Positions 10,983 to 45,110 of a DNA stretch of 64,000 nt are shown one piece after another. The notes below the pieces were generated by a model. That model did no database searches. It saw nothing but the letters and a program-made list of their open reading frames with translations, and was not told the origin of the DNA. Location: positions 19,495,147-19,559,146 of the forward strand of contig OZ038457.1 in assembly GCA_964036195.1 (NCBI GenBank), read 5' to 3'. Source of the stretch: Sphaerolaimus hirsutus (Eukaryota > Nematoda > Chromadorea > Monhysterida > Sphaerolaimidae). Position numbers and translations under genes: made by a program. Positions within the stretch are counted from its first letter, which is position 1, and every line of letters starts with the position of its first letter.

Positions 10983-13900
10983 ATGACTTCCTCGTGGGAC
11001 CCGTGCATGGACGCGCCCGACGACACCGACTACGTGGACTACGACGCGCCGCCCGCATTCAACGTGTCCATGTGCAACTGCTCAGACCCGGTGCCCACTC
11101 TCGGACCATGTGAAATGGGCTGTGAAATGTCGAATGTCGTGGGAAGTGTGAAAAGTCATGTAAAATGCCCTGGAAATCGTTTGCTATTTTTCAGGGCATT
11201 TTACATGATTTTGGACGCATTGAATGACATTTTACATTTTACAGGGCATTTTACAGGGTATGGGAGTGCCCCCTGGTGCACATGAACCTGCCCGAGTGCG
11301 ACTGCCAGTATGATTATTAGTTGGTTTGGCGCTGCACACACTACACTAGTTTACTGGCAGTAAAGTAAACATTTAGCAAACACATAAATCAACTTTGAAT
11401 GGCTTTCGAGTTTACTCAAACTAGGTTGATGTTTTTCAACTACGGTTGACGGTGGGTAAAAAACATCCAGTAAACTCTAATGTGTTCTAGGCTGATTTAT
11501 GAGTTTACGAATTTTTTAAATTTCTCAAGTAAACTAGTGTAGCGCTAATTTGTGTCCATTGGCCGATGAAGGATAGCGTAAGATGAGAGTCATTGATTTT
11601 TTCCCAACTCTATATGGAAGCAACGGTTTCGTCCTTACTCAAAGACTCTTCAGTTTGGAAGCCACCCCTGGTGCAAATAAATACTCAAACTTACGTTTAC
11701 CCTTTCAAACGACTCAAAAGAACAAACGTATGAAATTCAACCCTAAACTAAACTCAAATGTTTGATACGCAGCTATAGTGGAGTGGTCCCGGCGCCGCCT
11801 CTGATCGATGTGCTGCCAAATGGATTGTTGTATGGATTGCTATTTATAATTGGTCAGTTTTCGTTGTTGCGATGGCAATGGCATGGTACCTTTAACTAGA
11901 ATACCCAAAAGAAAGCAGTCCTGAACCAGGTAGAATATCAGATAAAATGTCACACAATGGTTTCTAATCTCATGTGAAATTTTCGGTGCCTCGTAGAACT
12001 TTCTTCTTTTACCGGTAAACTTTACCGGGAATTTTACATAACATTTGACATGTTCTGGGATTCGCTCCTGTCTCTACTCCGAGGGGCACGTTGGAAATAT
12101 CGCCATAGTAATACTTGGCAAATCACCGCGGTGTATTAATGGCATCAAATCTTTTTTTAAACCATTTTAAAAAGCACCCACCCGTCGCAGGCACCGTCGG
12201 CAACGTACTTGTCATTTTCGTGGTCTGGCGTTTCCGCTCAATGCGCTCGGTGACAAACGTGTTTCTGGCGTCGCTGAGCACGGCCGATTTGTGCCTGATT
12301 TGGTTCTGCGTGCCCATACAGTACGGGAAGTTTCTGGCGTTCACCTGGTTCCGGTCCCAAATCCTGTGTGCCCTGTAAAATGTAAAATGTCATGCAAAGT
12401 GTCAAAAGTCATGTAAAATGCCCGGTAAAATGGCAAACGTACGTTTGCCATTTTACCGGGCATTTTACATGACTTTTTACACGTTGCATGACATTTGACG
12501 TTTTACAGGGCATTTTACAGGATCTGGGACTGCCGCCAGGAGAATGGGCATGTTCGTGTGCTACGCGGTGCACTACGTGCAACAGTTCACCATCGCGTGC
12601 AGCGTGCTCACGCTGACTGTGATTAGCATTGAGAGGTTGGCGGTTTTGCATTGGCCCTACGCGCAGTCGTTCGCGCGGCGTTAAATTGATGCCATGGCAG
12701 TCCCAAGCCCTGTCAAGTGTAAAGTCAAGTGTCAATTGTCATGTAAAATTTCATACAAATTTGTCAATTGTCATGCTGAGTGTCAACATTACAGTAACAG
12801 GTAAAATCTTTTCTTTTTTTGTTTTTATTGACATTTTACATGACATTTGACACCTGACTTTACGCTGACCAGGGCTTGTGACTGGCCCCAGTTGTCAATG
12901 GATTTTTTCGTTGAAAGTGTTTCATAGAATAAACCTTCAATGATTTTTAATTTGAATGTACCTGATTAAATTTTTATTGACACACTTTCAATTTAAAATT
13001 CGATTGACAGTTTATGGCGCGTCAATAAGTGCATACCTATATGCATTTACCGTATTTCTTCTAATAGAATGGCATACCTCCAATAGAACGGCAGGTAGAA
13101 ATTACATTTTAGGAGTGCCAAAACACAAAAATATTCGACAAATTGGTGGCAAGAACATCCAGTGTGTTCTGAACTATGATGCAGGGGTTGTTTTCACATT
13201 TGGATTGATGCTCTGATTTAGTGATGTAAAAAGCGCCAGACTTTTGGCGCCAAGCGCCAAAAGCGCCATGGCGCTTTTGGCATGTGAGCGCCAAGCGCCA
13301 ATGGCGCCACAGCGAAATAGCGCCAAGCGCCAAAAGCGCCATGGCGCTTTTCTAGAACACGGCGCCAAGCGCCAATGGCGCCAGAGGATGTTGGCGCCAA
13401 GCGCCAATAGCGCCAGCGCCAAAAATTTTTGCTGCCTAAAAGGCAGCCATGCTAATGCAGGTATTGGATAGGTCCTGTCGGTTAGGTTTTGTAGTAGGTT
13501 AAGTAGGTTATGTAGGCTAAGGGTGCTGAGCTGAGCACTGATGAGACCCTGGCACCCGCCCCAAAATCATCCCCTGTCTGTTCGAAAGGGTCGAAACAGG
13601 GTTTTCTGTCTGGAGGTGCTTGGGAGTGCACCATGTGATTCTTCCAGACATCTTTTGGATATCTATTTACTTTGGGTCCTCTACAGTTTGAAGCATTCAG
13701 ACATTTTACCATTGTATGTTTCTTTTTATTCAACAACAACAAAACTTAATTTTCAACACAATGCAATACTATGCATTTGATCGCCACTCGTCGGCTCATG
13801 AGCAAGATTTGAATTGGGATGGGAACCATTAGGCCCATTATTTGGGGAATGTTTTTGAATATCCTTGCAAAATAAGCAAGTGTAGGGTTTGTTCTTCCTG

Positions 13901-16900
13901 GAATACATGTGCAGTAACACATTTACTTGTGAAAATTTTGCACACAAGGTCTTTTAACATAAAATAATGATATATTTTTTTAACTCCTTGGCGCTTTTTT
14001 TGGCGCTTTTTAAAATGCCAGCGCCAAGCGCCAATGGCGCCACGGCATCATAGCGCCAAGCGCCAAAAGCGCCATGACGCTTTTCCGTAGCACAGCGCCA
14101 AACGCCAATGGCGCCACAGCAAAAAGGCGCCAAGCGCCAAAAGCGCCATGGCGCTTTTTGCTTTGGCGCTAGCGCCAGGCGCCAGCGCCATGGCGCTTTT
14201 ACATCACTACTCTGATTCTGATATTAAAACGTCGCTCATGTTTCACTAAAATACTATGCTCAAATTGAAATCGTGTGAACAAGTCTGACGAAAGAAATAG
14301 AAAGGCAACCTCCAATAGAACGGCACCTCCAATACAACGGCAGGTAAAAACAGTTTACGAAAAAAATAGAACGGCGCCGCTCTATTAGAAGAAATACGGT
14401 ACTCGTTTTGTTCATGTATTTGAGAATATTGTATTGTAACGCCGTACAGACATCTAGCCATCGCGTACCCGATGAAGACAATGTGGCTGAGCAGCATCGG
14501 CAGAGCCAAGAAAATCATTGCATTGATCTGGCTGTCGGCGGCCATTTTGGCCATACCGGCTGGCATGAGAATTGTAAAATCGCCGCTTTATTGGCCCCGC
14601 ACAAACTAGTTTCTTGCCGAAATATCTAAAACATTGCCGAATATCTAAAACATTGTCGAACACATACCGTATTTCCTCGAAATACCCCACTCAAAATGGC
14701 CACTATGAACTTATAAACCCAACTCGAAATACCCCCTCCACCAATTTAGTGTATAGAGAACGTAAATGACAAAAGCTACGGTTTGTCATCCGGGCAATGC
14801 AGAACACACGTTAAAAACAATGACTGTGTTATGTGAGAACAGTGTTTATACCGTCTAAATACCTTTACAAGTCTATAGAGTTTTATAAATGGCGATGTTT
14901 GTGGCATTTTTCGACGTCTGCGTACGTTTCAAACGACAATTTAGTACTGGGATTAAAAAAAAACTTCTGGCCAAATAGTAAACCCCCTCGAAACACCCCC
15001 TCGTTTAACCCCCCCTCAAAATTCTCACTCTGAAAAAATAAACCCCCTTCGAGATAAATAAAAAATAAATAAAAAATTTCGAGGAAATACGGTAAACACG
15101 CACCTACATCAGCTTGGAACGCAGTTTAGTTTACCGGATTGAGTTGTCCGTCAACTGCTGTTGATGAACATTGAAAATGATTCATCACAACGCTAAATTC
15201 AAATGCGTTCGAAACTGATCAATACTCATAAATATAAACAGTTTTCCAATTTTTTAAATTTCGGTAGAAAACTAGTGTGTGTAGGCACATAAACATTCCC
15301 AACATTATTCCCAACCCGCAATAACTTTTACCCTCCCCCCAGAATTACTACGAGGGGGTAACAGCCAGAAATCTGACCTACGCACACTGCATGCGTTCAT
15401 TCCCGCACAAATGGTTGAACGTGGTGCCGCAACTGGAGCTCATACACTGTCTGTATCAATTTATCGTGTTTCTGTTCGTGCCGCTGCTCACAATGAGTTA
15501 TTGCTATGGCAGAGTGATTAGGATCGTGCACAGGAGTTCTAAGGACAGCGAGATTGCTAGATCGAAGTTTGTTTCTACTGATGTTTGTGAAAAAATACAT
15601 GAGTACTTGGTATACTCGGGTGACTTTACACAGGAGCAAACGCTCCAGGGGTATTGGGCATAACGTCATTACCATAGTAAATTTTGGCCATGTGCCAAAA
15701 AGTAGAATATTTGGATACAGTTTGTAGCCAAGGGCTTAATGCTCTCTAATCAAACCATTGATGTTCAATTCAACTGAGGGCATTTATCTCTTATCCAACT
15801 GTTTTGCATGTGAATTTTATGCATAAGAATGAAGTAATTTTATTAAGATAGCTTTTAATAATTTCTGGTGAAACCAACGGTATTTTGGCTTCTGGAAATA
15901 CAATGTATAGTACGGCTGGTATGCAGGGTTTTCTTTATTTTTATTTTTTGTGCAAAAGGTCAGTTCATAAGTTTTTAGTTGGCGGTCTGCCAGCTGAATA
16001 CAGAAATCAGTGCGAGTGCAGAGTATCAAGTCCACCGAATATATTGTATTTCTTCGAATAAGGATGCACCCTCTAGATTTTTTCAGTTTCATTTAGACCA
16101 AATCCCTTTTATTGATAGATTTCTTCTTGTTACTTGCACATTTTTGGCACATATGTTCCATTTCACCTTGCATGAATAATAACCTGTTTTTGCTGCTTGA
16201 ACCAATCATGCAGCTACAAGTAGACAACTCCTAAGTAAGCGGTTAAGTGGCAAGTCAAGTGTCAAGTAAATTTATGAACAGAAGTACTTGTCGCTTAACT
16301 TACCGTTTATGACTTTACTCAGCACTTCTAACTTTTTCTTTCTGATTCCATGCTAATAAGCATCAGATATTTATGTCAATAAAAAATCCGCAGACGTTCC
16401 CGAAACGACTACACCTCTAATCCACTTTTGACAGTTGATCAGTCTTCTGTGGGTGATCAGCACAGTCAGCACAGTTTTTTGGATGCCAGGAAAAATAGAC
16501 AATCTGTTAGAGGCCATGGGGGCCATAAGGATTCTAGTAAGAAGCAGGTTTGTAAACACCTTCCCGGTCACGTCAGGCAGCCATTTTTTGATGTTACTTC
16601 TTATATCCTATCCCCAGTTCTAGAGCGCCCCAGAGGCTGAAACTTGGGGGAGATATTGGCGCAACCCCCCTCTACTTCGCATGAATTGGGGGGGTCGCGG
16701 CGACCCCTTTCAGGGTGGGTCGCGCTAAGTGCAAAATTTTTTGCGGCTTTTTTGGTGTCCCACAGCAGGTCCGGCACCCGCTGATTTCTGAGCTGTGGGA
16801 GGGGTATAAATCTAAAATTTTGGGAATGTGTTACCAACACCACTCCCCTACTATACACTATTCAATTATGTGAGATTTATGTGAAAAATTTCTCAAAAAT

Positions 16901-19900
16901 TCGCTCATTCTCTAAAAAAACACCACTCCCCAATAGATGGGTGACAAAAAATTCACTTTTTGGAACTTTTTTATTAGACACTTGAAGAGCTGGTTTACGA
17001 TACTTTAAAGGGAAAGGTTTGATGTTTAAAGTTATGTAAAGAACCATACCTCTAAAATGCCTGCATTGCAAAATTTACTTAGGGCGAATTTTATGACATC
17101 ATAATGACATCATTGCAGGAACAAAAATTTACAAAATTTTCACTTTGAAATTCCCCCCAAGTAAATTTTGCAATGCAGGCATTTTAGAGGGATGGTTTTT
17201 TACATAACTTTAAACATCAAACCATTCACATTAAAGTATTGTAAACCAGGTCTTCAAGTGTCTAATAAAAAAGTTCCGAAAAGTGAATTTTTTGTCATCC
17301 ATCTATTGGGGAGTGGCGTTTTTTTAGAGAATAAGCAAATTTTTGAGAAATTTTTCACATTATCGAATAGTGTATAGTAGGGGAGTGGTGTTGGTAACAC
17401 ATCCCCAAAATTTTAGATTTATACCCCTCCCATAGCTCAGAAATCAGCGGGTGCCGGACCTGCTGTGGGACACGAAAAAAGCCACAAAAAAATTTGCACT
17501 TAGCGCGACCCACCCTGAGAGGATTCGCCGCGACCCCCCCAATTCATGCGAAGTAGAGGGGGGTTGTGCCAATATCTCCCCCAAGTTTCAGCCTCTGGGG
17601 CACTCTAGAACTGGGGATAGGATATAAGAAGTAACATCAAAAAATGGCTGCCGGACGTGACCGGGAAGGTGTTTATTTATTTATCGTGTGCTACTGGCTT
17701 TGAGGGACTTTTTTTGAGTCTGAATACCCTAAAAAAATTGGCACCAAATTCACCTACATATATAATGTGATGAGAAAAATATCTGTTCTGTATTCAGATG
17801 GGATACGGTACATGTCATCGTAAAGTGGTTTGCCAGTGCCACTCAGCCACATAAACTCCATTTACCCCCCCCCCAAAGATAATCCAAATGCTCGTTCTAA
17901 TAGTGATCTGTTTCACTATCTGCTGGTCGCCGACGGTCATGGACGACATGCTGGTCGGCTTCCGCTACCTGTGCGGCACGTCCAACACGAACCAGCTCAA
18001 ATACGCCAGGTGCCCGTCCCGGACCCTGTTAAATGCCCTGTCAAATGTCAAATGTCAAGCAAAGTGCCAAAAGTCATGGAAAATGCCCGGTAAAGTGGCA
18101 AACGTACATTTGCCATTTTACCGGGCATTTAACATGACTTTTGACACTTTGCATGACATTTGACATTTTACAGGGCACTTTACAGGGTCTGGGACTGCCC
18201 CCAGGATGACGTTCGCCGCGCTCGCCTACGCGCAGAGTTGCATCAATCCGCTCATTTACGCTTTTATGGCGAAGAATTTTCGGAGGTGAGAGCCGTTTTT
18301 GCCGTTCTTGCGATTCTTTGACGATACCGTATTTCCTCGAATTATCCCTCCTTGAATTGACCCCCTTATGAGCGATTTTTTAAGATTTTTTAAAAATATT
18401 AGAAAAAAAATCGGATTCATATTTATTTATAAATATTTTTAGATACATTTGATTTTATATTTGTGTGATTTTCTGCGGTTATATCTTGACCCCCCCCCCC
18501 ACCCCCAGTTCGTTCGCGGCCACGTGGCGCGCGTGGTTCGGTCGTTCCGACGCGCTTGCCGGCGGCCCCGGCGACGCGACGCACGGCACCACGTTGGAGC
18601 GGCCGGGCAGCGCGCAACACGCCCGACTGCGCGGCTGCAAGAGCCACTCCACCCAGGTGCCACTCGCGGACGCTGTGAAATGACCTGTCAAATGTCAAGT
18701 GTCATGCAAAGTGTCAAGAGACGTGTGAAATGGCCTGGAAAATGGCAAACTTACCCTGTAAAATGGCAAACTTACCCTGTAAAATGGCAAAAGTACGTTA
18801 GCCATTTTCTAGGGCGTTTTAGGTAAAATAGGTACATTATTTAATTGAATTTAAAATTTGAAGTTAAGAAAAGCAATAATCCACAAATGGCTTGAAAAAA
18901 TTACTTGGTGCACTCCTTCAGCACCTCCAACTCCAAGCCAGTGGCCACACTTTGCATGACATTTTACATGACGTTTTACAGTGTCCGGGACTGCCCCCAG
19001 AGAGCGCCCTACAGACGCGCCACCACAGTCAACTATAATAATGGGGATCATGGCGCCAGGATTATGGACACCAGGAGACAAGTGTCTACTTGCGTTGAGG
19101 GATATGTGCTCAGTCCCAGCGACAGGAGCTTGGACAGCCAGGGCGGCACGGCGAGGGCGATTCAGAGAAGGGGTTTGTTGGCGACTGGGCGTTAGCGAGT
19201 TGACTGTGTCTGAATTGGGTGGTGTTTGTTGATGGGTGGATTCAAGTGCGTGTCGATAGCCCTTTTAGGGTCTGGTGCGGTCATGTTGCCTTTTTAATAA
19301 TTAAAGTGGTAGGAAAAATATTATGACATCGGAGATTAAAAGCTGTCGCCGTTTTGCGTCACGGCGCTGTTCTGTTCTATAACACATCGATCCAACATGA
19401 ATTAAAATGCCTTGTCAAGTGTAAAAATGCAAAGTGTTAATCAAAATTTTAAAAAGCAAAAACTTATTACCGAACTTTTGAAATTTTGCATTACATTTGA
19501 CAAATTAGTATGAAATTTCGCATATTTGTCACTTTACATGACACTTCACAGGGCGCGGGATCCCCCCCCCCCGCATCCCACCCGTAAACTTCCAACCCCC
19601 CCCCCCGCAGCCGACTTCGCCGCGTCGCGCGCCGGCCCCTACCATCAAACTTGTTTGAGCCGCGCCGCGCGCACCAACGACAACAGCCGGTCGAACGTGT
19701 CCCGCCCGGCCTCCGACGACAAGGTGGCCAGTCCCAGACCCTGTAAAATGCCCTGGAAGAATGGAAAATGTCACGCAAAGTGTCAAAAGTCACGTAAAAT
19801 GGCCGGTAAAATGGCAAACGTACGTTTGCCATTTTACGTGACTTTTGACAGTTTGCGTGACATTTTCCATCTTCCGGGGCATTTTACAGGGTCCGTGACT

Positions 19901-20124
19901 GCCCCAAGGCGGCGGCGGCGGCGCGCATTCGCTCCGGCAGCTTGCCCGGCTCCGTGCGCAACTTCTTGGGCGACAGCGGCGGCGGAAAAAGTGCCAGCGC
20001 TGAAAGCGACGCGGACAGCTCGGAGCGGCACAAGGACACCCAGTGCAGGAAGATTAATGATAATGAGAGGATATTGTTGAACGTTTTGGGTAGTAGCAGG
20101 ATGCAGTCGTCTACTAATGTGTGA
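10983..20124 (+). CDS. class A (rhodopsin-family) peptide-type GPCR, 13 exons
   Basis: Plasma-membrane receptor with seven helices, most like neuropeptide or peptide-hormone receptors; the ligand cannot be assigned. Exons deduced from frame and splice sites: 10983-11090, 11267-11307, 11773-11852, 12191-12353, 12540-12635, 14450-14573, 15343-15570, 17879-18009, 18205-18285, 18509-18656, 19001-19172, 19611-19723, 19909-20124. All phases agree and give 566 codons plus stop. The N-terminus has acidic/Tyr residues and sequons NVS and NCS. TM1 (about residues 64-88) has GTVGN; TM2 has STADL; TM3 ends IERH in place of DRY; TM6 has CWSP; TM7 has NPLIY (about 338-342). A tail of about 220 residues is Ser/Arg-rich. 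The exon 7 donor could instead be at 15583, the exon 3 acceptor at 11779, and exon 11 could read to a stop at 19195. Five introns are intact introners (listed separately). I chose ATG 10983 because it opens the acidic ectodomain exon; an upstream non-coding exon is possible. Confidence 0.9.
11091..11275 (+). mobile_element. introner 1 (intron 1 of the 13-exon GPCR)
   Basis: The inverted-repeat element begins GTGCCCACTCTCGGACCATG directly after the Pro codon ending exon 1, and ends ...TATGGGAGTGCCCCCTG. The tip is CTG rather than CAG, but a G where other copies have C creates an AG at 11265-11266. Using that acceptor keeps the frame and adds three residues. The element arms pair (TTTCAGGGCATTTTACATGA against GTCATGTAAAATGCCCTG). 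Confidence 0.85.
11336..11547. mobile_element. CACTAGTTTAC-end MITE in intron 2
   Basis: Left CTACACTAGTTTAC pairs with right GTAAACTAGTGTAG; inside, CATAAATCAACTTTGAATG-like and TGATTTATGAGTTTACG segments pair. It belongs to the same family as 2118-2283. Confidence 0.6.
11925..12075 (+). repeat. diverged introner remnant in intron 3
   Basis: The motifs ATAAAATGTCACAC, TTTACCGGGAATTTTACAT and ACATTTGACATGTTCTGGGA follow the order seen in intact introners, but the tips are degraded. The intron now uses other splice sites (11853 donor, 12190 acceptor). I interpret it as an aged copy. Confidence 0.45.
12354..12539 (+). mobile_element. introner 2, between TM2 and TM3
   Basis: 186 bp. Donor tip GTCCCAAATCCTG, acceptor tip TCTGGGACTGCCGCCAG. 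Removing exactly this segment joins TTCCG to GAGAATG, giving the extracellular-loop-to-TM3 transition in frame. The centre is an almost perfect hairpin (GGTAAAATGGCAAACGTACG against CGTACGTTTGCCATTTTACC). Confidence 0.95.
12692..12890 (+). repeat. diverged introner inside intron 5
   Basis: It begins CCATGGCAGTCCCAAGCCCTG and ends AGGGCTTGTGACTGGCCCCA, with TGTCAATTGTCATG-type internal motifs. It no longer supplies splice sites: the intron uses GT at 12636 and AG at 14448-14449. It is either an older copy or an insertion into an existing intron. Confidence 0.7.
13219..14209. mobile_element. hAT-like non-autonomous element with GGCGC palindrome arrays
   Basis: Terminal repeats TAGTGATGTAAAA and TTTTACATCACTA are flanked by an 8-bp direct duplication CTCTGATT (13211-13218 and 14210-14217), the duplication length used by hAT transposases. 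Each arm is an array of short GC-palindromic units such as GGCGCCAAGCGCCAAAAGCG; the middle (about 13430-13990) is unrelated DNA without a convincing ORF. It sits in intron 5 of the GPCR gene. Confidence 0.9.
14284..14402. mobile_element. TACCGTATTTCTTCTAATA MITE
   Basis: The right end TATTAGAAGAAATACGGTA is intact; the left part carries CCTCCAATAGAACGGCA. It has the same layout as 10278-10395. Confidence 0.5.
14664..15094. mobile_element. CGTATTTCCTCGAAATACC foldback element in intron 6
   Basis: The left end TACCGTATTTCCTCGAAATA pairs with the right end TTTCGAGGAAATACGGTA. The internal core GACGTCTGCGTACGTTTC is shared with the copies at 20170-20549 and 61346-61798. Confidence 0.7.
15607..16050. 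repeat. TATACTCGG-end repeat in intron 7
   Basis: It starts GGTATACTCGGGTGACTTTA just after the coding part of exon 7 and ends near CAGAGTATCAAGTCCACCGA. It resembles 757-1000 and 60525-60775. It has no coding content of its own. Confidence 0.4.
16553..17675. mobile_element. 1.1 kb foldback element with arms of about 500 bp
   Basis: Ends TAAACACCTTCCCGGTCACG and CGTGACCGGGAAGGTGTTTA. The arms match over roughly 500 bp, including CATGAATTGGGGGGGTCGCG on one side and its complement on the other. A 64-codon open frame beginning MQCRHFRGM is present, mirrored, in both arms, so it is a by-product of the palindrome. It lies in intron 7 of the GPCR gene. Confidence 0.85.
18010..18204 (+). mobile_element. 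introner 3, between TM6 and TM7
   Basis: 195 bp. Donor tip GTGCCCGTCCCGGACCCTG, acceptor tip GGGTCTGGGACTGCCCCCAG. Exact removal joins GCCAG to GATGACG and restores the TM6-loop-TM7 frame up to NPLIY. This is one of the cleanest cases of an element acting as a whole intron. Confidence 0.96.
18657..19000 (+). mobile_element. introner 4 in the receptor tail, 344 bp
   Basis: Donor tip GTGCCACTCGCGGACGCTG follows a CAG codon; acceptor tip GTCCGGGACTGCCCCCAG precedes AGAGCG. Splicing is phase 0 and in frame. The copy is longer than the others: the short segment around AATGGCAAACTTACCCTGTA is tandemly repeated and about 100 bp of other sequence interrupts the right arm. Confidence 0.93.
19403..19562 (+). 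repeat. diverged introner remnant in intron 11
   Basis: The motifs AAAATGCCTTGTCAAGTG, TTACATTTGACAAATT and CTTTACATGACACTTCACAG keep the introner order, but the acceptor is now the poly-C/CGCAG site at 19610 beyond the element. It is interpreted as an older copy whose right tip was lost. Confidence 0.5.
19724..19908 (+). mobile_element. introner 5, last intron of the 13-exon GPCR
   Basis: 185 bp. Donor tip GTGGCCAGTCCCAGACCCTG follows GACGACAAG; acceptor tip GGTCCGTGACTGCCCCAAG precedes a GCG run. Splicing is phase 0 and in frame. The centre carries the hairpin GGCAAACGTACGTTTGCC. Confidence 0.94.
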
Positions 20125-20169
20125 CTTTTTGCGGGCTGGAGTTGAGAAGATTTGTCTGCTTGTGGTGAA

Positions 20170-20549
20170 TTACCGTATTTCGTTGAATAACCCCAGGTCT
20201 GAGTGAGCTTGTGAAGAAATAGACCCCGCCCTCGAAATACCCTCACCCAAAATGAGTGTAATGAGAATGTAATTGCCAAAACCCGCAGTTTGTGAACCGT
20301 TTAGGCGACGCAGAACACAGGTTAAAACAATGACTGAGTTACGTAAGGACAGGGCTTATACCATTTATATACTTGCACAAGTCTATAGACACTTATACAT
20401 CTCGGTTATTGTTGCATTTTTCTACGTCTGCGTACGTTACAAACAACGAATAAGTACTATTAGAATAAGAATAACTATACCACATCCCCTCAAAATTTGC
20501 ACTATGAAAAAATAAACCCCCTATGGGGTATTTCGAGGAAATACCGTAT
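20170..20549. mobile_element. CGTATTTCCTCGAAATACC foldback element
   Basis: Left TTACCGTATTTCGTTGAATA, right GTATTTCGAGGAAATACCGT, with the shared core TCTACGTCTGCGTACGTTAC in between. Confidence 0.6.
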
Positions 20550-20747
20550 ACCTTATATAAGCCGATGGCCCGACACATGATGGGCTGAAGAAATAGGTAC
20601 GCAAACAAGTGTTATCGAAACAACCATAACATTGTTTAGCTGAACACGTCACACGCTTCACGCCCACTCGTGATGAGCAGCGAAATCGGATAAAATGCAT
20701 TGTGTTGTCAGATTTGCGACATGATTCTCTGAATGCCAGCATTGACG

Positions 20748-25140: not shown

Positions 25141-25497
25141 GTTGGTTTATGGCACTTTTTTTGGTTATGCGCGAGTTTTTTTAAAACCAAACAGATCAAA
25201 TTAAAACGCTTGCTTTTGTCTGCGAGTTTATTTACAAAGTGGAGGTGGCCACGCGAAAAATTTATGGTTTTAAATTGGATTGGAAGGTACATATTTACAC
25301 GGAAATTTTATGTAAAAATTACGTGTTAAAACGTAAAAATATGTGTTCGGCATAAATTTACAAATGATTACTACCCGAGCGAATAAGCGAATCAATATCA
25401 ATACAGAAATAGAATCTCGAAGCAGAATTATATTGAAATATTGCTTGTAAATATAAATAGGTAGGTAATTTCAAATCGAACCCTGTATTTTTAAGAT

Positions 25498-25805: not shown

Positions 25806-28800
25806 TCAGCGGAACAATTTGTAGTGCACTGGAATCCCGGCACCCCTGGCGCCCCTATTCCCATTTGTGTCGCCCTGGCGTGTCAGAGTTCTTATTGTCG
25901 CCCGTGGCGCTGGCGCCGACGCCAGACGCCTTGGCGCCGAAATGAATAGAGGTGTCGTTCTGACAAGTGGCAGAGCAGCCGTCGTCTGGGGTCTGCGCGC
26001 TTTTACCCGTATTTTCATATCCTGTTCAAGTTCCGTATATACCAGAGTTGGAAAAACGTATTTACGTTTACCCGAAATACCCGGTTATTCGGGTATTTAT
26101 ACTTACGTTTACGTTTACGTTTTTCAAAAATACCATTACGTTTTGTTACGTTTTCCTGACCAAAGTACCCGGGTACTTGGGAAAACGTAAAAAAACTTGT
26201 AATCTTTCACACGTGCACATATTCAAATGGGCCGCACCACCTGCAGCCAACAATATTCTTATGTTATCGCATAAGCGTAACATGACTGCACACTTGCACT
26301 TACACATGAAATACTGGGTACATATTCATAAATGTGTTCAAACGCTGAACACAGAAACCTTTTTGTTTGTTTGTGGAGCCTTGCGTCTATAAATTTTTTT
26401 TGATGAGTACCGACGACGCCACTTGCAACAACTGTGAGTAACATTTTTCAAATGTTTTGAAACTGGCAGGGCGAGTGCAAGCTCTGGTGCCACTCCCAGA
26501 CCATGTAAAAAGCCCTGTAAAATGTCAAACGTCATGCAAAGTGTCAAAAGTCATGGAAAATGGCCAGCAAAATGGCAATGATTTGCCACCTTCCAGGGCA
26601 TTTTGCATGACTTTAGACACTTTGCATGCCATTTGGCATTTTACAAGGCATTTTACAGGGTCTGGGACTCCCCCAGAATCACCAGCGTATAGTTGAATTT
26701 TGCCACACTAAAGGTGAAAATAATGGTATTTTCCAAAGCACAAGTATTTTTACGTTTACGTTTTTTTACGACTTCCTTGGTATTTTTAAAATACCTTACG
26801 TTTTAGTATTTATACTTTTGATTTGGAAAAGGTATTTACGTTTACGTTTACGTTTTCCAAAAATACCAGTATTTGCACAACTCTGGTATATACTCTAATA
26901 ATTCTCCCGCCTTGAATAATTCCCCCTTGAGTAATTCCCCCCTCTTAGAAGAGTGAGGAAAATAAATTACCCCTCAAATAATCCCCCGTTCAGGCATGTG
27001 ATAAAGTTTTTGCATCCAATTTGAACAAAAATTACATGTTATTTAGTAAATAAAGCATATTTCATGAAATCAGTTCATAGAAACATGGGATTATTATTTC
27101 GTCAAAATTTTTAAGCCTCTTGAAGAATTCCCCCTCGAATAGCCCCCCCCCCCTCAAAAAATTCTGACGAAAAAAATTTCCCAGCGGGTTTATTCGAATA
27201 TATACACTATTCACTGGGCGAACGCACCTGTCGGGATTGTAATAAATAGGCCGCTTTATCAGCTTGGCCAAGTCGAATCTGGGATCTGTAAGCGGCTGCG
27301 TCTTGTCGTCGACCGGGTGAATTTCCGCCGCCACATCAATAACTCCTGCCGCTTTTCCCGGTTTCGGTAGCCTCCGGTGCGGCTGCACCCACGGCGGCCC
27401 GCTGGTGGGCGACACGTATTTGTGCCGCCTGCCTTCCGGCTGCCCATTCAGCCATATGGTGCCCTCGGCGTCGGTGACGGTGCCCTTGCTCGGCTGCGGT
27501 CGACTTTGAGTGAAGTCCGGCGCCTGGGGGCAGTCACGGACACTGTAAAATGCCCTGGAAGATGGAAAATGTCACGCAAAGTGTCAAAAGTCATGCAAAA
27601 TGGCCGGTAAAATGGCAAACGTATTTACGTTTGCCATTTTACCGGCCATTTTACATGACTTTTGACACTTTGCGCGACATTTGACATTGTACAATGCATT
27701 TTACAGTGTCCGAGACTGGCACCTGATCCTGGCGCCAGTGGGTCTGGTCGCGGCTCAGCTGCACCTTGCCGCCCCTGCCGCCGTGCGAGTCCTGGTCGCG
27801 CTGCGTGTTCTTGTGCTGCTCCGCCAGCGGTATGGGCCGGGTGCGCGGCGCCGACGGCTCGTCGTCGGCTGGAACTGGATGAGTGGTGGCGTTTTCGCGT
27901 TCTAGCGACGTTTCGCGATTAACGGTGGAAAATCTCGGGAGATTTGTGGTTTTTTAAATATCGGAATATATAAAAAGAAAATCTCATAAAAATTTGTTGA
28001 TTTATATCTTATAAATATACCTACCTATATTTTATTTATATCTTTTTTGACATTATAAAAATATTTATTTGTATTTTCTCCATGTTTTTCCAAACAAATT
28101 TAATTATATTCTATTTAGGAGAAGAAAGTATAAAAAATATCTCATTTATTATTCGGAGAGATTCTATTTCCAATAATAATTTCTTGTATTTAAAACTCAA
28201 TTGGATTTTCTTTTTAAGAGATTTTCTGAGATTAGGTATATTTTCTCAAAATCACCCCATTTTTGCAATGCTACTCACGCAACTGTCTTCACTCTTCACA
28301 CACTTCAACCCTCACCAACCTGGCAAGTACTGTAACCCGGCCGGTCCGGCGGGCGGGCGTCTGCTGGGCGGCAGCTGCATTCGCTGCGAGCTGGTCGCCT
28401 TGTCCGCCTCGAGCGAGTGCAGCCGGCCGTTGCGGATCCACCAGCGCTCCTGCGCCGTCGACACCGACGATATGGGCGCGTCGTCGGACACGCCGCTGCC
28501 GCCGTCGCCGGGGTTCCGATCATCTTGGTGCCTGCGGGTTGCGAGCGTGTTTGTGTGAGAGTAGTGATGTAAAAGAGCCATGGCGCTGGCACTTGGCGCT
28601 AGCGCCAAAGCAAAAATCGCCATGGCACTTCTGGCGCTTGGCGCACTTTTTGGCTGGCGCCAGGATAAAATGCCTGGCGCTGGCGCTAGCGCCAAAGCAA
28701 AAATCGCCATGGCACTTCTGGCGCTTGGCGCCATTTGGCTCTGGCGCCATTGGCGCTTGGCGCTATAGGTCGGAAAAGCGCCGTGGCGCTTTTGGCACTT

Positions 28801-31800
28801 GGCGCCAAAATTCTGGCGCTTTTTACATCACTACTAGAGAGCCTGCCAGACATAACAGAGTCGAATAATGCTGGCAATAGCTACAGATACTTTGTATGTG
28901 TAAACAATTCAGAGATTATACACTGAATCCCTGAAGGCTGAAAAAAGTCGTCAGGGTGGCACTCCCAGACCCTGTAAAATGCCGTGTAAAATGTAAAATG
29001 TTATACAAACTATCAAATACCCTGTAAAACGACAAACCAAACGACTCACCCGCACCCCGTACTAGCTGTAATATACACTAGCGCATTAGTAGCCACCATG
29101 AGCAGCACCACCACCGTAATCGCTATAGCAGCAAAGCTGTACGGGCACCACAGGCCCCTGTTGGTGCCGCTCGCGTTCGAGTTGTTCGTGTGCGCCGGCG
29201 GCGAGATCAAGTGCAGGTGGGATGTGTGCGGCAGCGGCGTGCGCACCATGCCCCGGTCGGAGGACGCGCTGCTGCCTGGGGGGGCATCTTTGTCAGGGCA
29301 TGCAGCTTGGCAGGGCAGGGTTGCTTGTGCGAAAGATAATAGTTGCCTAATTGCCTATTGCGACCGTGTTGAGTGAATTGCTTTGTTATTATCAATAAAG
29401 CGGCGTTTACACTGCATTTTGTGCCGACAAAAAAAGAAGACAAAAAGTTTCATAATTCCTCAATAAGGTTCCATATCTGCAAGACAAAGCAGTGAAGTAT
29501 ACTCACTAGTTGAGTGTACACACATGCCAATTTGCAGATAATTCGGGCATGTCGTTCACGACTTAAAAACAAATTACATTTGTCTGTTCGGTTTTCGTTT
29601 TGAAACCGAACCGACAAGTGTAATTTGCTGTAACTCTTGAACGACACACGCAAATTATCTGCAAATTGGCATGTGTGTACACTTAACTAGTGAGTATACT
29701 TCAGTGCCTTACCTTGCAGATGTGGAACTTTATTCCGGAATTATGGAACTTTTTCACTCGTTTTTTTTGTCGGCACACGAAACCGTGTAAACGCCGCTTT
29801 AGGTAAAAGACATTTATTACGATGGGGAAAATTTTTTTTAGCTTTGAGAGAACTAACATCTGTATTTTTTGTCTGTTTTTAGAGATTTTCGAGTTTTTAA
29901 TTTTTTTGTGAAACTTGAATTTTTAACCAAAAACGCACGTTTTTACACATTAAAAAGTGTTTTTTCACACACAACCATAGCTTTTAAAAACAGTGAGGGT
30001 TTCGTCAAGTAGGTTTTATCGGATGTCGATATCACATTATTTAAATCGTAAATTTGCTCAAAAACCAGGTAGGGCTTGAGTAGAAACAACCAGGGTTCAA
30101 ATCTCCCCATAATCGATACAGAAAGAGTGCAAAATTGCACTTGCCTCAGGCGGGAATCGAACCCGCACCTCTCGTATAGAACACGAGTGCCCTAACCACT
30201 AGACCACAGAGGCGGCTGGGCTCCTCACTATTAGGGGCTGACATGCTGCGTCGGCAATGCCCTTAACACCTCGCGGCGTTGCGGAGATGTCATCCCTGAC
30301 ATCGTGTTGATGTAGGGGTAAGCTACGGATCGCGGTCCGTGCTGTTTAAAGACCGGTGTTCGGACCACACTCGGCCAGCCATGTGTGATGGTCAGGCGTC
30401 GTCGTATGATCCACGGTCGCGGCACCAGAAAGAGTGCAAAATTGCACTTGCCTCAGGCGGGAATCGAACCCGCACCTCTCGTATAGAACACGAGTGCCCT
30501 AACCACTAGACCACAGAGGCGGCTGGGCTCCTCACTATTAGGGGCTGACATGCTGCGTCGGCAATGCCCTTAACAATACTCAGTCTGATCAAACGTAACA
30601 ATTTCTAATGTCCAAATCGACCAAAATCACACCCAAACTCAATCGCACCTGTCGAAGTAGCCACCGGCTGCACACCATGCTGATATCTCTGAATGGCGTC
30701 ATACTCACTTTTTCCGCCAGTGGTCGTCTGCTGGTGGTACCATGGTGTCCACGCGGTGGCCGGCGTTCTATTGTTTGAAGTTGCCGGCACCGGGGGCGGC
30801 GGGGATAGTTCCACTACCGTGTGCTGGTGCCGGTGTTGGTGCCTGTGCACACGGTCGGTGTGGAACTTGGGCGTTACACCGAGATTGCAAAGTGTGACAG
30901 TGATGAGAAAGGTTGAAAGTGACAGATAGGTAACGCTTGTATTGAAATTAACACCCCGGAAAAAAGTATTTAAATTTTCAAGTGTTTTTTTCTGAAATGA
31001 ATTTCGAATTTTTTGAGAGGAAAAATCGATTTTCAAGTGTGTTTTTCAGGGATGAAATAAAAATTCGAAAATTCAGAAAAAGTTTTAGAATTATCGAATC
31101 CTTCTTTGCCACCGTTACACATGCCCGCACATTCAAAGCCCCCCCCCCCCCAAATCTACCTGTGACACCTGGGCACATGAGCGGCCTGGTGGGCGGGCCA
31201 CCTGCCCCCGGCGCCATTCACGAACTCCGCACCGGACGAGTGCGAGTGCCGCCGGCGTCTGTTGGCGTCGTAGGCGGCTGAAGACCGGCCGGCGGCGAGC
31301 CCGTCCGCTAGAGTCGAGTCGGACACGTGCTGCCCCGCCCCGCCGACTTCCTGGGGGGGGGTGGGGGTTGTTTTGGGGGGTCCTGGGGTCAGAGTCAATT
31401 TGAAGGTACTTGGATTTGAGTTGAACGTGTGCCGCCCGACACTCGGGACGTTAAATTGGGCACAGTTTCAGCGCTGGCTCGGGTGTGGGGCGTCCATTTA
31501 AGTGCACCTTACGTTCAAATTTTTTTTGGGCTCTGACGGTTTACAGTACCTACTGTTGAGCATTGAGCTTCAATCAGTGGTTTAGGACAACTTATGACAA
31601 AACTTTTGGTAGTTTTTAGCAAAGCAGGCTGTCGTGACTGCGGATCTAAGACGAATTTCAAACACTGAAATTCGATTTAATAAAAATGAATGTGATAACT
31701 ATTGACAGTGAAAGTGATGAATCGGGTGGACAAGGGTTGACACCCAATCAATAATCATGATTATCTAAAATCGTGATCTTAATTGATCATAATTGATCTG

Positions 31801-34800
31801 GTCCATGACACCCTATACGCTGTTTTCACAGTTGTTTTTCTACTTTCGACCACCACGAAAACCGTCGCTTCACCCTGCAAATCAAATCCGAGTTGGACGC
31901 CGCCCTGCCGATAATATGATAGGCGGCCGGCGCGCCATTGTTCGCGTACGGCTCGCTGGTCAACAGCACCGTGTGCGTGGTGCCCGGCGCCGCGTCCAAC
32001 AACAGCGGCGTGCGGTGCCGGTGCGGCCGCAGTCTGGCCATGCACAGGTCCTGGTACATGCTCGTGGTGATCACCATTGCGGCCGGTGGCGGCGCCGCGG
32101 CGCGGCGGTGATAAGACGCTCGGTCGAGTGGGTTCGACTGCGCGCGGCTGGGAGTGACGCGCGGCTGGTCTCGCTCCGTCGAGGGTCAAGTGGCCTCGAT
32201 TATCAGCACCGGGCGGATGTGTCGCCGTCGGCCGGCCGTCGCTGGCGTCCGCGCGCGTCCCATCTCCGTGTTCGACCCAAGTTCGGCAATGCGCGTTTTA
32301 TCGTCGATCGACCGCGCGCATGTCAAGGGTGTAGGCGGGTAGTGATTTGGTGGTGCAGCGGCAATGTCCGAGTTCTGACTTCCGAATGTGTGATCCGAAT
32401 CCGCTGGCTTATTGGCGGGTTGTCAAAAAAAAGTAAACAGTGCGTTAGCTGTGCCACGGTCGCTGCGCAACTTTTCCGGTGCGCTTGTCTAGTGGGACGT
32501 TTCTGACGTCGAGGGGGGGGGGTCACGCTCGTGCACGAATTGGTCGACGCGTGTGATTCGACTGCGCGGCTACGAGTTTGTCGTGCGTAAATACATAGGT
32601 ACATAAATATGTACTATATATTTCACATCAAGTGTGTGTGTACGTAGATGGTGAGTAGCTGCAGCAGTGGTTAAAAAGAGCGGCCTTAAGTGGTCGCTCG
32701 TGACACCCATCCCGCCGCACGACGGCGACTTCTTTGATGCGGTTTTTGTCGCAAACTTTCGTATACTCGCCAGTGGGCAATTGTTTAGACTGGCCCGGCG
32801 ACAGGAGCGCATGTTTTGAATGAAAAGTAGACAAAAGCGACCGGCGAAGTTGGCTTGAATTTTAGTTGATAAATATTAAGAATACCATTACCCAAAGGGG
32901 ACGAGCGCATGTAATTTACGAGGAAGGAGTTAGTAAGCATCATAACGGTGCATGCAATTGAGTGTGTAGTGCTTGTGCATGGGAAGTGATTTCATGTATG
33001 ACACTAAGTAACTGTCGTACACAAAAAAAGACATTCAAACTGTCTTAATTTCTTAGTTTCTTTCTTAATTTCTTATCAACAAGAAAAAGGTTGAAAATAT
33101 GAAAGTACACGCATCTGCGACACAGACTCACTTTGATGTCAACTGTGCTCGACGATGACTCCGTTTCTGTCAACTCATCAGTTGACGGGTCACTATTAGA
33201 CTCCATAAGCGCCGCGTACTAAATAATTCACTGATAATTAAGGCTATCCTGGAGCCATGGCTTTCGCACAACAACCGCATTCGAAGTTGCTTAGCATTTT
33301 ATAGATCGCGTGGTAATTAGGTATGTAATTAGTGAGATTAGATGTGCATTTATGGTAGACAAATAAAATTTGGGTGTTGATTAATTTGATCATTGATAAA
33401 AGGTAAAAAATAGTAAATGTCAACGTGAAGCATGATTTTGATGCTTCGATAAAACGGATATAGGTACATATAAATGTTGCCGATTCTCTACGCACTGCGC
33501 CACTCTCAAAAGTGGTCGCTCTGATGAGTATTTCATTGTTTGTTATTCCGAAAGGTGCAAAAAAGTGTGCGGAGCGAATGAATTTGTATAGGTAAGTAAA
33601 CAATAAGAAAAACAAGTGCTGGATGTGCAGATCGGGAATTCTGATCATCGGGAAAAAATCGCCAGTTTTCATGCGCTGCTGGCAGCGAGCGACAATATTG
33701 CCGTCGCATTAGACTGGCACACTTTTCAAGTGTCCCCACCCACAAATGTCTTGTTCCATTTTAGTTTGACATAAAAGAATCCGAAATAAAATATTTAGGT
33801 AAAATATCCACGGTGCGCTCAGCAGCATACTTTTCAATGGGTGGATGACGGTTTTTTATGGTGTTCATGCACTGTTCAGAAGGCAACAATAGCCGTTTGT
33901 TTGCAACAATAGCCGATATGCATCGATCAAATGCTTATTTACTTGGTAGCCATGCTTCTCTGCATTGGAGCATAACCAGAACAATGCTTAATACGGGCCT
34001 GTGCCTGTTGGCATGTACGTAAACCATTTGGCATGTAGACAATGGATCAAGTGTTTCCGAGATTTTGACCCTCGCGGGGTCTTGATAGGTACGAAATCCC
34101 TTCTCCGGAAATATAAAAAAAAGCTGAAAAAAAATTCTGGGGGCTGGCTGGAGCAAAGGCATGATATAGGTATAATGGCAAAATTGACAACATGGAGCAA
34201 ATTTAGCGATCTTGAGTAAAAATTGTGGCTAAAATTGTTCAAAGTTTGCTTCACACAGATACCTAGATAGTTGAGCGATTTGTGGAGGGCTCAGGTGATA
34301 GTAGCCCCGGGATAGAAAGATAGCTGCGCAGCCCTTCGCCATGAGAACCCCGCAACGGTCTACATGCCAAGCGGTTCACATGCCAAGCGAGTGTACGTCG
34401 CTTAGGGGCTTAATACCAGATTACTGACTATTATGCACGGTAGTGTACTTGAAAAAAGTGTTCAGACACACAACACTTTTTAAAACACAAATAATGTACG
34501 GCAAGTGTATAATTCCCAAAATTGCAATTTCGGAATCGAAATTCCACACCTCAAACCCACTACTCACCCTGCCCCTACTCTCAAACTCATAAGCGGACTT
34601 GAGGTCGTCCTCATCGTGCAGCCACATAGCCGTCATATTGGGCATGCTGTGTCTTCGCTTTGGCCGGCCCCTCCTGTGCTTGCCGCGCCGTCTGGCGCCG
34701 CGCTCGCTGTTCTCACTTTGACTCGGCAGGTCGGTTTCGATTGTCCGCCGCCGCCGGTCCCCTTTGCCTCTGCGGTCGCTTTTGTGCCTCCTGGAGCCAG

Positions 34801-36803
34801 TCAAGGGCCATGTGAAGTGTCCTGTAGAATGTCAAATGTCATGTAAAGTGTCTAAAGTCATGTAAAATGCCCTGGAAAAAGGCAAACGTACGTTTGCCAT
34901 TTTCCAGGGCCTTTTACATGACTTTGGACACTTTGCATGACATTGGACATTTTACAGGACACTTCACATGGTCTGGGACCGGCACCTGGAGACGGACGTG
35001 TCCTCGTCGGAGGGGCCCGACCCGTTGTCACCCGACGTCAAGTCGCGCTGCCGCGGCGGCGAAGCGGTTGCTTGCTGGGCGCGCCGCTGCGCGTGTGACC
35101 GCTTTACGAAGCGGCGACGTTTTTGCCTGCGGCGGGAGGAGTGAATCGTTTGGGGCTGATTTTTCAGTGACCTAATAAGAACTTGAATCATTCGTCGGAA
35201 TACTAAATCAACAATTCAAGTACTGAAATCAATGTTAGTGAACTCTAGTTGGAAGAAAACATATATTAGGTAGGTAAATATTTACAAAATCAATACTTAA
35301 AACGTTTTTTTGTGAATGTTAAATTTTGTAAAAAGTTCCCTATCCATCAGCGTGAGGGGGGTATTCGAGGAGGCGTGGAGATATTTTAACCACACGCTCA
35401 CAAATGGGGGATTTATCCGATGGGTGGTTATTCGAGGATATAAGGTATCTGAGAATGCATTGCACTACGTTGCAGTAGTTAGTGCACTGCAAGCTAAAAT
35501 CCGATTTCATTTCACCCACCTTTGTCTATGCGCGTGTTCACCACCATCTACCAGCTCATCAGCCACGCTATTTTCATGCCTGGATACATTCCTTCTGTTC
35601 AACGATCTCAGGTACCTCTTGCCCAATCTTTCCAGCAAATCGTGCATGGTCATCTGCGCCAACCCGCCGGTGGACTGCCTGCTGTTGGTGTTGTCGTTGG
35701 TGCTATTGGCGGCGTTTTCAGTCCCATTTGGGTTGGTGACTGTGCTGTTCGAGTTGACTGGCAAAAAAGTGTTCGGGTTGCGCGAGGCCGCCTTTGATTG
35801 CGGCTGGAAGTTTGGCGGCAACGCGACGTTTTGAGTGCCGCCCCGGTTTATCTGCGCGCGCACCGGCGTCTCGATGTTGCCGCGCGTCCTTTGACTGCGA
35901 CATTGGGCCCGATTTTAGGGATGCGGCGATGTTATCTTTTTGACAAATATGCATTTGTTGCGCAGCCTTTGCCCTCCAAACACTTCGCGGATGAACATTG
36001 ACCCCCAAATCCGAATTTTACGCCCACTTCAACTGCGCAAGTCGCCACTCGACTGCGCAATTTAATAGTGGACGCGCGAATCAAAAAAATTAAAACCTTG
36101 AGCGAACTCACTTCCTCATCGGCACATTGGGCGGGTTTGGTGGTGGGCCCACTGGCGGCGGCGGCGGTCCATTATTACTGCCGCCGGCGCCAGCGCCATT
36201 CACCGGGCCTCTTGGCGCCTGGGCGCCTGGCGCCATAGTGCCCGGCGCCATAGCGACGCTATTTATTTGCCTCGGTGCGCCGAGAAAAAAATCGCCGAAG
36301 CCGGCCGAGCTGGGTAGCATGGACAAGGGCTCCATGCTGATAAGATTGTTCGGCGCTTGGGCCATGGGTGCCGGCTGCCACATGCTGAAGTAGGGAGGCG
36401 CGTTTTGATAGTTCTGGTGCTGGTTGTCCAGTGGCACTGGTGGACCAGGGGGCACTCCCAGAGTCTGTAAAATGCCCTGTAAAATGTCAAATTTCATGCA
36501 AAGTGTCAAAAGTCATGTAAAATGCCCTGCAAAGTGGCAAACCTCCGTTTGCCATTTTGCGGGACATTTTTCTATGACTTTAGACACTTTGCATGACATT
36601 TGACATTTGACAGGGCATTTTACAGGTTTTGGGAGTGGCACCAGGCGCCGCACGATTGAATGGCGTGTAAATGGCGTTCTGCTGTTGGCTGGCCGGTGGC
36701 TGCATTTGCCCTGTTGAAGGTTGATGCACAGCGGGCTGGTTAGAGTAGCTGAGAAAATTGTACGGCGCCCCATCGTAGTTGTACATCTTGGTGTCCGGTT
36801 GAC
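25806..36803 (-). CDS. unrecognised single-pass membrane protein, at least 14 exons, 5' end missing
   Basis: Exons in transcription order: 36642-36803, 36112-36454, 35520-35894, 34986-35126, 34568-34790, 32644-32789, 31874-32060, 31202-31350, 30709-30842, 29050-29275, 28320-28531, 27723-27874, 27228-27523, 25806-25992 (stop TGA). Every junction phase agrees, giving about 977 codons without a stop. Order of parts: Pro/Gln/Asn-rich N-part (PPPPPVGPPP); very basic stretch with RRRR, RRGKHRR and PKRRHS; a Cys-containing segment (32644-32789, RRDGC and NHCCSY); a second segment with DLCMARLRP; His-rich and Ser/Thr-rich linker with NNSNASG; one hydrophobic helix (about 29063-29135); and a tail of about 300 residues with ERWWIRNG and DPRFDLAKLIKRP. 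No family recognised. The paired basic sites before Cys clusters could suit a processed membrane-bound ligand, but that is speculation. Ordinary introns use GTGAGT; three are introners. Confidence 0.85.
26035..26893. mobile_element. 859 bp element with perfect 16 bp terminal inverted repeats
   Basis: GTATATACCAGAGTTG at 26035-26050 and CAACTCTGGTATATAC at 26878-26893 are exact inverted repeats. Both ends continue into TTTACGTTTACG and AAATACC low-complexity sequence. It lies in the last intron of the convergent gene and contains an introner-family copy (26487-26676). It is the best preserved member of the AGAGTTG family. Confidence 0.8.
26487..26676 (+). mobile_element. introner-family copy nested in another element
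   Basis: Donor-type tip GTGCCACTCCCAGACCATG and acceptor-type tip GTCTGGGACTCCCCCAG are both intact and oriented plus, opposite to the gene whose intron holds it. It shows that the family also inserts where it need not be spliced as an intron. Confidence 0.85.
27524..27722 (-). mobile_element. introner in the minus-strand membrane-protein gene
   Basis: On the minus strand it starts GTGCCAGTCTCGGACACTG after a GATCAG codon pair and ends GTGTCCGTGACTGCCCCCAG before GCGCCGGAC. It is a phase 0, in-frame intron. The centre holds the typical GGCAAACGTA hairpin. Confidence 0.95.
28562..28833. mobile_element. short GGCGC-palindrome element
   Basis: TAGTGATGTAAAA and TTTTACATCACTA ends enclose 272 bp made almost only of GGCGCTTGGCGCC- and GCGCTAGCGCC-like units. 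The flanking 8-mers (TGTGAGAG and CTAGAGAG) are only a partial match, so the duplication is unclear. Same family as 13219-14209. Confidence 0.8.
28956..29049 (-). repeat. partial introner in an intron of the membrane-protein gene
   Basis: Contains GTGGCACTCCCAGACCCTGT and TAAAATG motifs of one arm only. The intron starts with an ordinary GTGAGT donor next to exon 29050-29275, so this is a truncated copy or one captured by an existing intron. Confidence 0.55.
29396..29801. mobile_element. foldback element with TAAAGCGGCGTTTACAC ends
   Basis: Left TAAAGCGGCGTTTACAC, right GTGTAAACGCCGCTTTA. Nested inner palindromes include GTTCGGTTTTCGTTTTGAAA and the repeated GCCAATTTGCAGATAAT segment. No coding content; it lies in an intron of the convergent gene. 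Confidence 0.8.
30120..30268. repeat. tRNA-containing repeat unit, copy 1
   Basis: About 149 bp reading AGAAAGAGTGCAAAATTGCA ... CAATGCCCTTAACA. It is repeated almost base for base 307 bp to the right (30427-30575). Besides the tRNA it includes 55 bp of 5' flanking DNA with CTCACTATTAGGGGCTGACA. Confidence 0.9.
30142..30213 (-). tRNA. tRNA-Arg (anticodon TCT), copy 1
   Basis: 72 nt cloverleaf on the minus strand: acceptor GCCTCTG with CTGAGGC (one T-T mismatch at the sixth pair), D-loop AGTGGTTA, anticodon stem CTCGT/ACGAG around GTTCTAT, T arm GCGGG-TTCGATT-CCCGC. Anticodon TCT decodes AGA. The B box GGTTCGATTCC is perfect; no intron and no encoded CCA. It lies inside an intron of the convergent gene. 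Confidence 0.9.
30427..30575. repeat. tRNA-containing repeat unit, copy 2
   Basis: Second copy of the unit at 30120-30268, in the same orientation. The 158 bp spacer between the units is not repeated. Confidence 0.9.
30449..30520 (-). tRNA. tRNA-Arg (anticodon TCT), copy 2
   Basis: Identical in sequence to the copy at 30142-30213, including the single acceptor-stem mismatch. Both could be functional, or both could be part of a dispersed tRNA-derived unit. Confidence 0.9.
34791..34985 (-). mobile_element. introner in the basic region of the membrane-protein gene
   Basis: On the minus strand the donor tip GTGCCGGTCCCAGACCATG follows TCCAG and the acceptor tip CCCTTGACTGGCTCCAG precedes GAGGCAC. 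Splicing is phase 2 and restores a Ser-Arg-Arg-His reading. The acceptor tip keeps GGC-CC, closer to a perfect inverted repeat of the donor tip than the other copies. Confidence 0.95.
36455..36641 (-). mobile_element. introner in the Pro-rich region of the membrane-protein gene
   Basis: On the minus strand the donor tip is GTGCCACTCCCAAAACCTG; the right tip is CTG-type, but GACTG is changed to GAGTG, so an AG lies nine bases inside the end. That AG (36455-36456) gives a phase 1 in-frame join within a Pro-rich stretch. It is the same arrangement as introner 1 of the GPCR gene. Confidence 0.9.
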
Positions 36804-45071: not shown

Positions 45072-45110
45072 GTTTCCCCAGAACGAATATGTGCCAGTGT
45101 AGCGACATGT

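Follow-up and report, generated by a model that had tools for sequence, protein, structure and literature searches.

Can a short mobile element serve as a whole intron in a nematode gene, and what would equip it to do so? The question is raised by a 64-kb window of the Sphaerolaimus hirsutus genome (the window being the whole stretch of DNA that was analysed), in which near-palindromic elements of about 190 bp recur within protein-coding genes. The elements were compared with one another and with the genes that host them, their termini and target sites were set against those of described transposon groups, and the family was compared with published introners.

Element copies and their host genes

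The window contains 13 full copies of the element: nine in coding exons, spread over four gene models (E1-E9), and four elsewhere (X1-X4). Their positions are reported in table 1. Further fragments of the family lie near 28955, 39079, 19403 and 11916 and are left out of the full-copy count. All eight elements listed in the first-pass annotation are real, but the ninth coding copy, at 23516-23777, had been missed. Of the 13 full copies, nine fall within modelled coding sequence, which makes up 7.8% of the window (binomial p 5e-8, a value that is partly circular since the elements were taken into account when the genes were modelled).

Table 1. Gene models and full element copies in the window. 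Flanks are given as left/right; equal flanks are target duplications (TSD).
Feature	Position	Strand	Flanks	Description
Gene 1	10983-20123	+		14-exon class A 7TM receptor, 617 aa; hosts E1-E5
Gene 2 (partial)	23423-25144	+		exons 23423-23515/23778-~23895 and 25039-~25144; hosts E6 and X1
Gene 3	33132-36786	-		six modelled exons, one open frame; hosts E8 and E9
Gene 4	27228-32077	-		seven modelled exons, one hydrophobic segment; hosts E7
E1	11091-11275	+	CCG/CTG	between exons 1 and 2 of the receptor gene
E2	12348-12539	+	CTG/CAG	predicted intron, phase 2, at 'TW/RMG'
E3	18010-18204	+	CAG/CAG	predicted intron, phase 2, at 'YA(R)MTF', before TM7
E4	18657-19000	+	CAG/CAG	predicted intron, phase 0; extra internal sequence
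E5	19724-19908	+	AAG/AAG	predicted intron, phase 0
E6	23516-23777	+	CTG/CTG	extra internal piece; interrupts TM1 of gene 2, which is receptor-like
E7	27524-27722	-	CAG/CAG	predicted intron, phase 0, gene 4
E8	34791-34985	-	CAG/CAG	predicted intron, phase 2, gene 3
E9	36446-36641	-	CTG/CTG	gene 3; predicted intron 36641-36455
X1	24765-24942	+	CAG/CTG	more divergent; between two gene 2 exons, off the exon edges
X2	26487-26676	+	CTG/CAG	outside modelled exons
X3	12693-12891	+		degenerate, tips lost; within ordinary intron 12636-14449
X4	3421-3788	+	CTG/CTG	long copy, outside modelled genes

The tips of the element are far more frequent than expected by chance. With up to three mismatches allowed on both strands, the left tip is matched 13 times (0.26 expected) and the right tip 10 times (0.00 expected). 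Some of these matches are to the opposite arm, because the element is nearly palindromic: the left pattern arises in this way at 12521, 18186, 23759 and 26659, and the right pattern at 3418, 23513 and 26484. The tip sequences quoted in the first-pass annotation are thus well above chance, but its exact left 16-mer is found only at 3421 and 23516, neither of which was on its list; the exact right 19-mer is found only at 18186. The other copies carry close variants of both. A profile made from eight of the copies finds these eight again, which match it by construction, together with further copies and fragments. The inverted-repeat arms are roughly 90 bp long and the palindrome spans the whole element. 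A scan of IMG/VR with one 23-nt exact pattern gave no matches.

The product of gene 1 matches the Pfam family 7tm_1 (E 7.7e-51), which supports the earlier description of a 7TM receptor gene, although its exons number 14 rather than 13. There are 46 matches to this product among the 7996 candidates scored. In the best 25 of the 46, 24 bear nematode names and one has no name; the closest is a Plectus protein with 49% identity, and arthropods and others rank after the nematodes. The phylogenetic tree (18 sequences, midpoint root, with long branches flagged, that of the gene 1 query included) places the product as sister to Plectus and ten others, from Steinernema, Caenorhabditis and strongyles, with support 96/93. 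Trichuris, Soboliphyme and Romanomermis are outside its group. From this one gene, a nematode host is by far the most probable. A large imperfect inverted repeat, noticed by eye at about 16550-17670, occupies part of a gene 1 intron.

The other hosts are less well characterized. The gene 2 fragment, for which the exon join was guessed, gives a weak match to 7tm_1 (E 0.0055, below the Pfam cutoff). A tblastn search with the 46 gene 1 relatives matched gene 1 only, which is a weak test for the TM4-7 exons of gene 2. Among the candidates scored, genes 3 and 4 have no homologue with E<=0.001, nor do they match any Pfam family. In both, the exons flanking the elements are phase-consistent; in gene 4 the joins 28531/27874/27523 are phase-consistent and the earlier joins are provisional. 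At the gathering threshold, Rfam reports two tRNAs only; the two tRNA-Arg (TCT) genes, of equal score, lie on the minus strand within a modelled gene 4 intron (30142-30213 and 30449-30520).

Excision, reading frames and target duplications

The nine coding copies were examined for the effect of their removal. Taking out the element and one copy of the target leaves the two neighbouring exons in a continuous open frame in all nine; if the element stays in, all three frames are interrupted in each of the nine. This agrees with the first-pass annotation, in which removal had been reported to restore the frame for each of the eight elements listed, from tip to tip in six and with an AG just inside the end in two.

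The junctions at E1-E3 could be compared with 17 of the 46 gene 1 homologues. The E2 and E3 junctions are gap-free in 17/17 aligned homologues. That of E1 is gap-free in 13/17, one homologue lacking the region and three arthropod rows being gapped; here the tip-to-tip product reads 'CNCSDP/VHMNLPEC', against 'CNCSHPLHKFLEVC'. The alignment also corrects the second copy, previously given as 12354-12539: the element is genuine, but its start lies at the homologous GT, 12348. A donor at 12354 was rejected, because 'TW-RMG' is aligned in the homologues without space for two extra residues. Homology backs E1-E3 only, and for the other six of the nine coding copies the evidence is the open frame by itself; E4 and E5 lie within the unconserved tail of gene 1. 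Excision would restore the pre-insertion coding sequence, colinear at the three alignable junctions.

Target duplications were assessed by comparing the three bases before the element with the last three of the element-plus-duplication; X3, whose tips are lost, was excluded from every tip and duplication count. The two trinucleotides are equal in seven of the nine coding copies (permutation p 0.0098), in 7/11 copies when X1 and X2 are added (p 0.071) and in 8/12 when X1, X2 and X4 are added (p 0.040). They disagree in E1, E2, X1 and X2. CAG or CTG is found on the right side in 11 of 12 copies and on the left side in 10 of 12. Small size, inverted repeats and these duplications are MITE features.

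Ordinary MITEs inserted in pre-existing introns might merely resemble whole introns, and X1, X2, X3 and the fragments near 28955, 19403 and 11916 do lie in larger introns or between genes. Such insertions would, however, leave intron sequence outside the element, whereas in the nine coding copies the element tips are the exon edges, the joined exons are open in 9/9 and, in 7/9, these edges are spanned by the 3-bp duplication. We regard this explanation as highly improbable for the coding copies.

Tips at exon ends, colinear excision and target duplications together constitute the introner pattern. The family is therefore best described as a non-autonomous near-palindromic MITE that, inserted in coding exons, very probably forms spliceosomal introns, that is, as an introner family. 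Splicing of the elements, and gain of these introns within the lineage, are what we infer from the genomic sequence. The proposal of whole-element introners made in the first-pass annotation is upheld by the same three lines of evidence, except that the CTG targets, two among its eight copies, break the GT-AG rule when the element is read tip to tip.

Predicted splice signals and hairpin

We propose the following mechanism. Insertion would duplicate a target of 3 bp, CAG or CTG in most cases, and the left terminus, through the T at its second position, would create a GT donor. With CAG as the target, the result would be ...CAG/GTGCC...CCCC-CAG/, in which the duplicated CAG would double as the exonic positions -3 to -1 of the donor and as the acceptor AG, while the C-run of the right terminus would sit where the ordinary introns of the host also carry C. 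Splicing would then remove the element and one target copy, and the original coding sequence would be returned. A CTG target would supply no AG at the tip; copies with CACTC/GAGTG termini would instead use their own AG, 9 nt inside, at the cost of three extra codons.

The ordinary acceptors are C-rich. At positions -15 to -4 the frequencies are C 0.49 and T 0.17 in 16 introns of genes 1, 3 and 4, some of which depend on the provisional gene 4 joins, and a run of seven or more C is present in 5/16. The element acceptors are similar over the same positions (C 0.41, T 0.18; eight copies), and this stretch is also G-rich. The acceptor consensus of C. elegans, UUUUCAG, is U-rich, unlike the acceptors found here. 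No branch point was identified in the elements. The right arm also carries, upstream of the tip, one or two strong inner TTTTACAG-like AGs. These were rejected as acceptors: their distances inward from the tip, 19 and 31 nt, are not multiples of three, and their use would break the frame.

The right tip has no AG in three of the nine coding copies. Two of them, E1 and E9, read GT..TG from tip to tip and carry GGGAG at the right end, which provides an in-frame AG 9 nt inside. This is the AG just inside the end that had been invoked for 11091-11275 and 36455-36641; in the latter case 36455-36641 is the predicted intron, and the element itself extends to a tip at 36446. With the inner AG the predicted E1 intron is 11091-11266, and the three extra codons in E1 and E9 would encode CPL or VPP. 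In a search of the stretches around the tips only, alternative open acceptors were found downstream of E1 and E9 (tip+21, tip+9), and these would drop codons. The CACTC/GAGTG termini are seen in these two copies; the presence of CACTC in their left arms, matching GGGAG, suggests a subfamily rather than a chance change, on the evidence of two copies.

The third copy, E6, is inserted at CTG and has no inner AG. Within 45 nt of its left tip and 60 nt of its right tip there is no in-frame GT-AG pair that keeps TM1 uninterrupted; the in-frame options either lose TM1 residues or add element-encoded residues. An in-frame GT-AG choice is thus offered by eight of the nine coding copies; E6 may disrupt its gene, belong to a pseudogene or undergo non-canonical splicing.

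E6 bears on another possible explanation, in which the elements are unspliced insertions disrupting genes (alleles or pseudogenes) and the restored frame is merely the pre-insertion sequence. A clean insertion with a target duplication always restores the frame when cut from tip to tip, E6 is without a usable acceptor, and no TM4-7 exons of gene 2 were seen on inspection by eye. On the other hand, five copies are found in one 617-aa receptor that is otherwise intact, with no frame damage elsewhere. The coding copies are 73-90% alike (ungapped columns), which indicates that they are not fresh insertions; the GT tip comes first relative to the host gene in 9/9, and the GT is kept in all. Disruption without splicing is very unlikely as an account of the family, and is the likely one for E6 only.

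Spliced introners being the preferred reading, the predicted RNA structure was considered with regard to the splice sites. The nine coding copies are predicted to form extreme hairpins (MFE z -6.4 to -22.3). Folded alone, the elements leave the donor GT unpaired in 7/9 and the last three bases unpaired in 9/9. When the fold includes exon flanks of 30 nt, the donor is unpaired with a mean probability of 0.40 and the right tip (TG, not AG, in three of the copies averaged) with 0.42; the values for the inner AG and inner GT are 0.20 and 0.11, respectively. In these flanked folds the most open tips reach only about one half to two thirds, and those of E2 are closed. As a weak conjecture, the hairpin may mask the inner splice sites. 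In the model, the inner-AG acceptors predicted for E1 and E9 are paired throughout (unpaired 0.00), and this predicted pairing would count against them.

A candidate transposon group and comparison with known introners

The left terminus starts with GT in all 12 tabulated copies (X3 left out), as GTG or GTT in every case; the right terminus, read inward, starts with GGGG in nine of 12. The commonest termini are GTGCCAGTCCCAGACC on the left and GGGGCAGTCCCAGACC on the right, read inward. Both are present in E6, and they differ at positions 2 and 4 only. The terminal T was probably present in the source element rather than gained after insertion, because X1, X2 and X4 also have it. CACTA/EnSpm transposons have TIRs beginning CACTA/G and a 3-bp duplication; the termini GTGCC/GGGGC do not fit that group.

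The family was not recognized in the first-pass annotation. Judged from its sequence, it shares many of the structural hallmarks of the NuwaI transposons, which belong to the PHIS superfamily. According to the available text of PMC4482050, NuwaI elements have a CWG target duplication and TIRs of 12-61 bp that usually start with GGG. They were found through transposase homology, in animals only (16 genomes, none of a nematode), by a search that possibly missed MITEs; the autonomous candidates are about 4.5 kb long, and most of them carry a Myb/SANT ORF alongside that of a DDE transposase (PMC4482050). The elements studied here resemble NuwaI in their CWG target (CAG/CTG, with both sides equal in 8/12), in the G-run of the right terminus and in their animal host. 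They differ in the GTG/GTT left terminus and in the arms of about 90 bp, and the text available describes no NuwaI elements as introns (PMC4482050).

It is also conceivable, if rather unlikely, that a transposase unrelated to that of NuwaI, or else a route through RNA, mobilized the introners, and that the CWG/GGG resemblance is a coincidence. No transposase, and hence no autonomous partner, was seen in the 10 ORFs scanned out of the 64 in the window (110 aa or more); one target is AAG and one flank is CCG; the left TIR starts with GTG or GTT, and the arms exceed the 12-61 bp of NuwaI. Against this, inverted repeats with 3-bp duplications point to DNA transposition, and a CWG duplication combined with a G-run terminus fits NuwaI and not the other PHIS groups in the available description (PMC4482050). 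We therefore lean towards an element that works like a NuwaI-type MITE and probably derives from one, the mobilizing enzyme being a putative NuwaI-type (PHIS) transposase.

A retroelement region is present further along the window. It includes a gag-like ORF at 43254-45110 (minus strand; DUF1759, E 4.6e-18), presumably as in BEL/Pao elements, and, on inspection by eye, similar long inverted stretches near 40.3-41.2 kb and 45.9-46.9 kb. An ORF at 47243-49738 (plus strand) matches Monjiviricetes_fusion, a viral fusion glycoprotein family (E 2.6e-10). An assembly gap of N at 51037-51236 adjoins the retroelement, and a reverse-transcriptase-like ORF lies at 51882-52691 (minus strand; RVT_1, E 6.5e-05, below the Pfam cutoff).

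Among animals and land plants, Gozashti et al. (2022) found introners in two groups only, both animal, with copepods named in the available text (PMC9860276). Like the elements here, theirs are similar introns at many positions, with edges at splice sites, TIRs and a short target duplication; in the type of their figure 2C, one splice site is carried by the element and the other is co-opted from the duplication, as proposed here. Unlike the present family, the introners in that text include none from a nematode and none linked to a PHIS or CWG-type transposon (PMC9860276). The introner elements of Amoebophrya also form an inverted-repeat hairpin joining the exon edges, with direct repeats of 3-5 nt at the boundaries; in the text available they differ in their dinoflagellate host, in mostly non-canonical splice sites, in inverted repeats of 8-20 nt and in having no family-specific repeat motifs (PMC7789003). 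Introner transposons have been proposed as a source of introns in the larvaceans Fritillaria and Oikopleura (PMC13326754, PMC7789003, PMC10597677, each as available in part). The introns of Fritillaria are described there as mostly non-GT/AG, in contrast to the in-frame GT-AG choice available to 8/9 coding copies here. The partial text of PMC10597677 names Oikopleura as another early introner case, and terms an intron of a bdelloid rotifer gene introner-like.

No report of nematode introners was found in the literature searched, which lacks most subscription papers and bioRxiv. Meloidogyne is a nematode genus, and we take one wording that places it among the fungi to be a probable slip for the name of a fungus. 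The words in question are 'dothideomycete fungus Meloidogyne graminicola' (PMC10597677, available in part). A paper on intron gain in nematodes names introners as a known source, citing work on fungi and Micromonas in the part available (PMC9169325). For a pairing of introners with Harbinger, the literature searched gave, in the texts available, a single mention of Harbinger. Within the limits of this literature, the elements look like a new introner family in a new phylum.

More tentatively, they might be the first nematode introner family and also the first whose origin in a named transposon group can be traced, with NuwaI-type elements pre-adapted to become introns. The CWG target would supply the acceptor CAG and the exonic CAG of the donor in one step, the G-run terminus would supply the C-tract, and one base change (GG to GT) in one terminus would make the intron. 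The C-rich ordinary acceptors of the host may be co-adapted to such elements, or relics of them.

Biologists have long asked how introns originate. With a nematode family, the animals reported to carry introners would come to include another phylum, one to which a major laboratory model belongs. The pattern suggests why a NuwaI-type transposon could turn into an intron, through its choice of target and one terminal base. The CAG and CTG targets constitute a natural experiment: insertion should work at CAG, whereas CTG would need an internal rescue AG.
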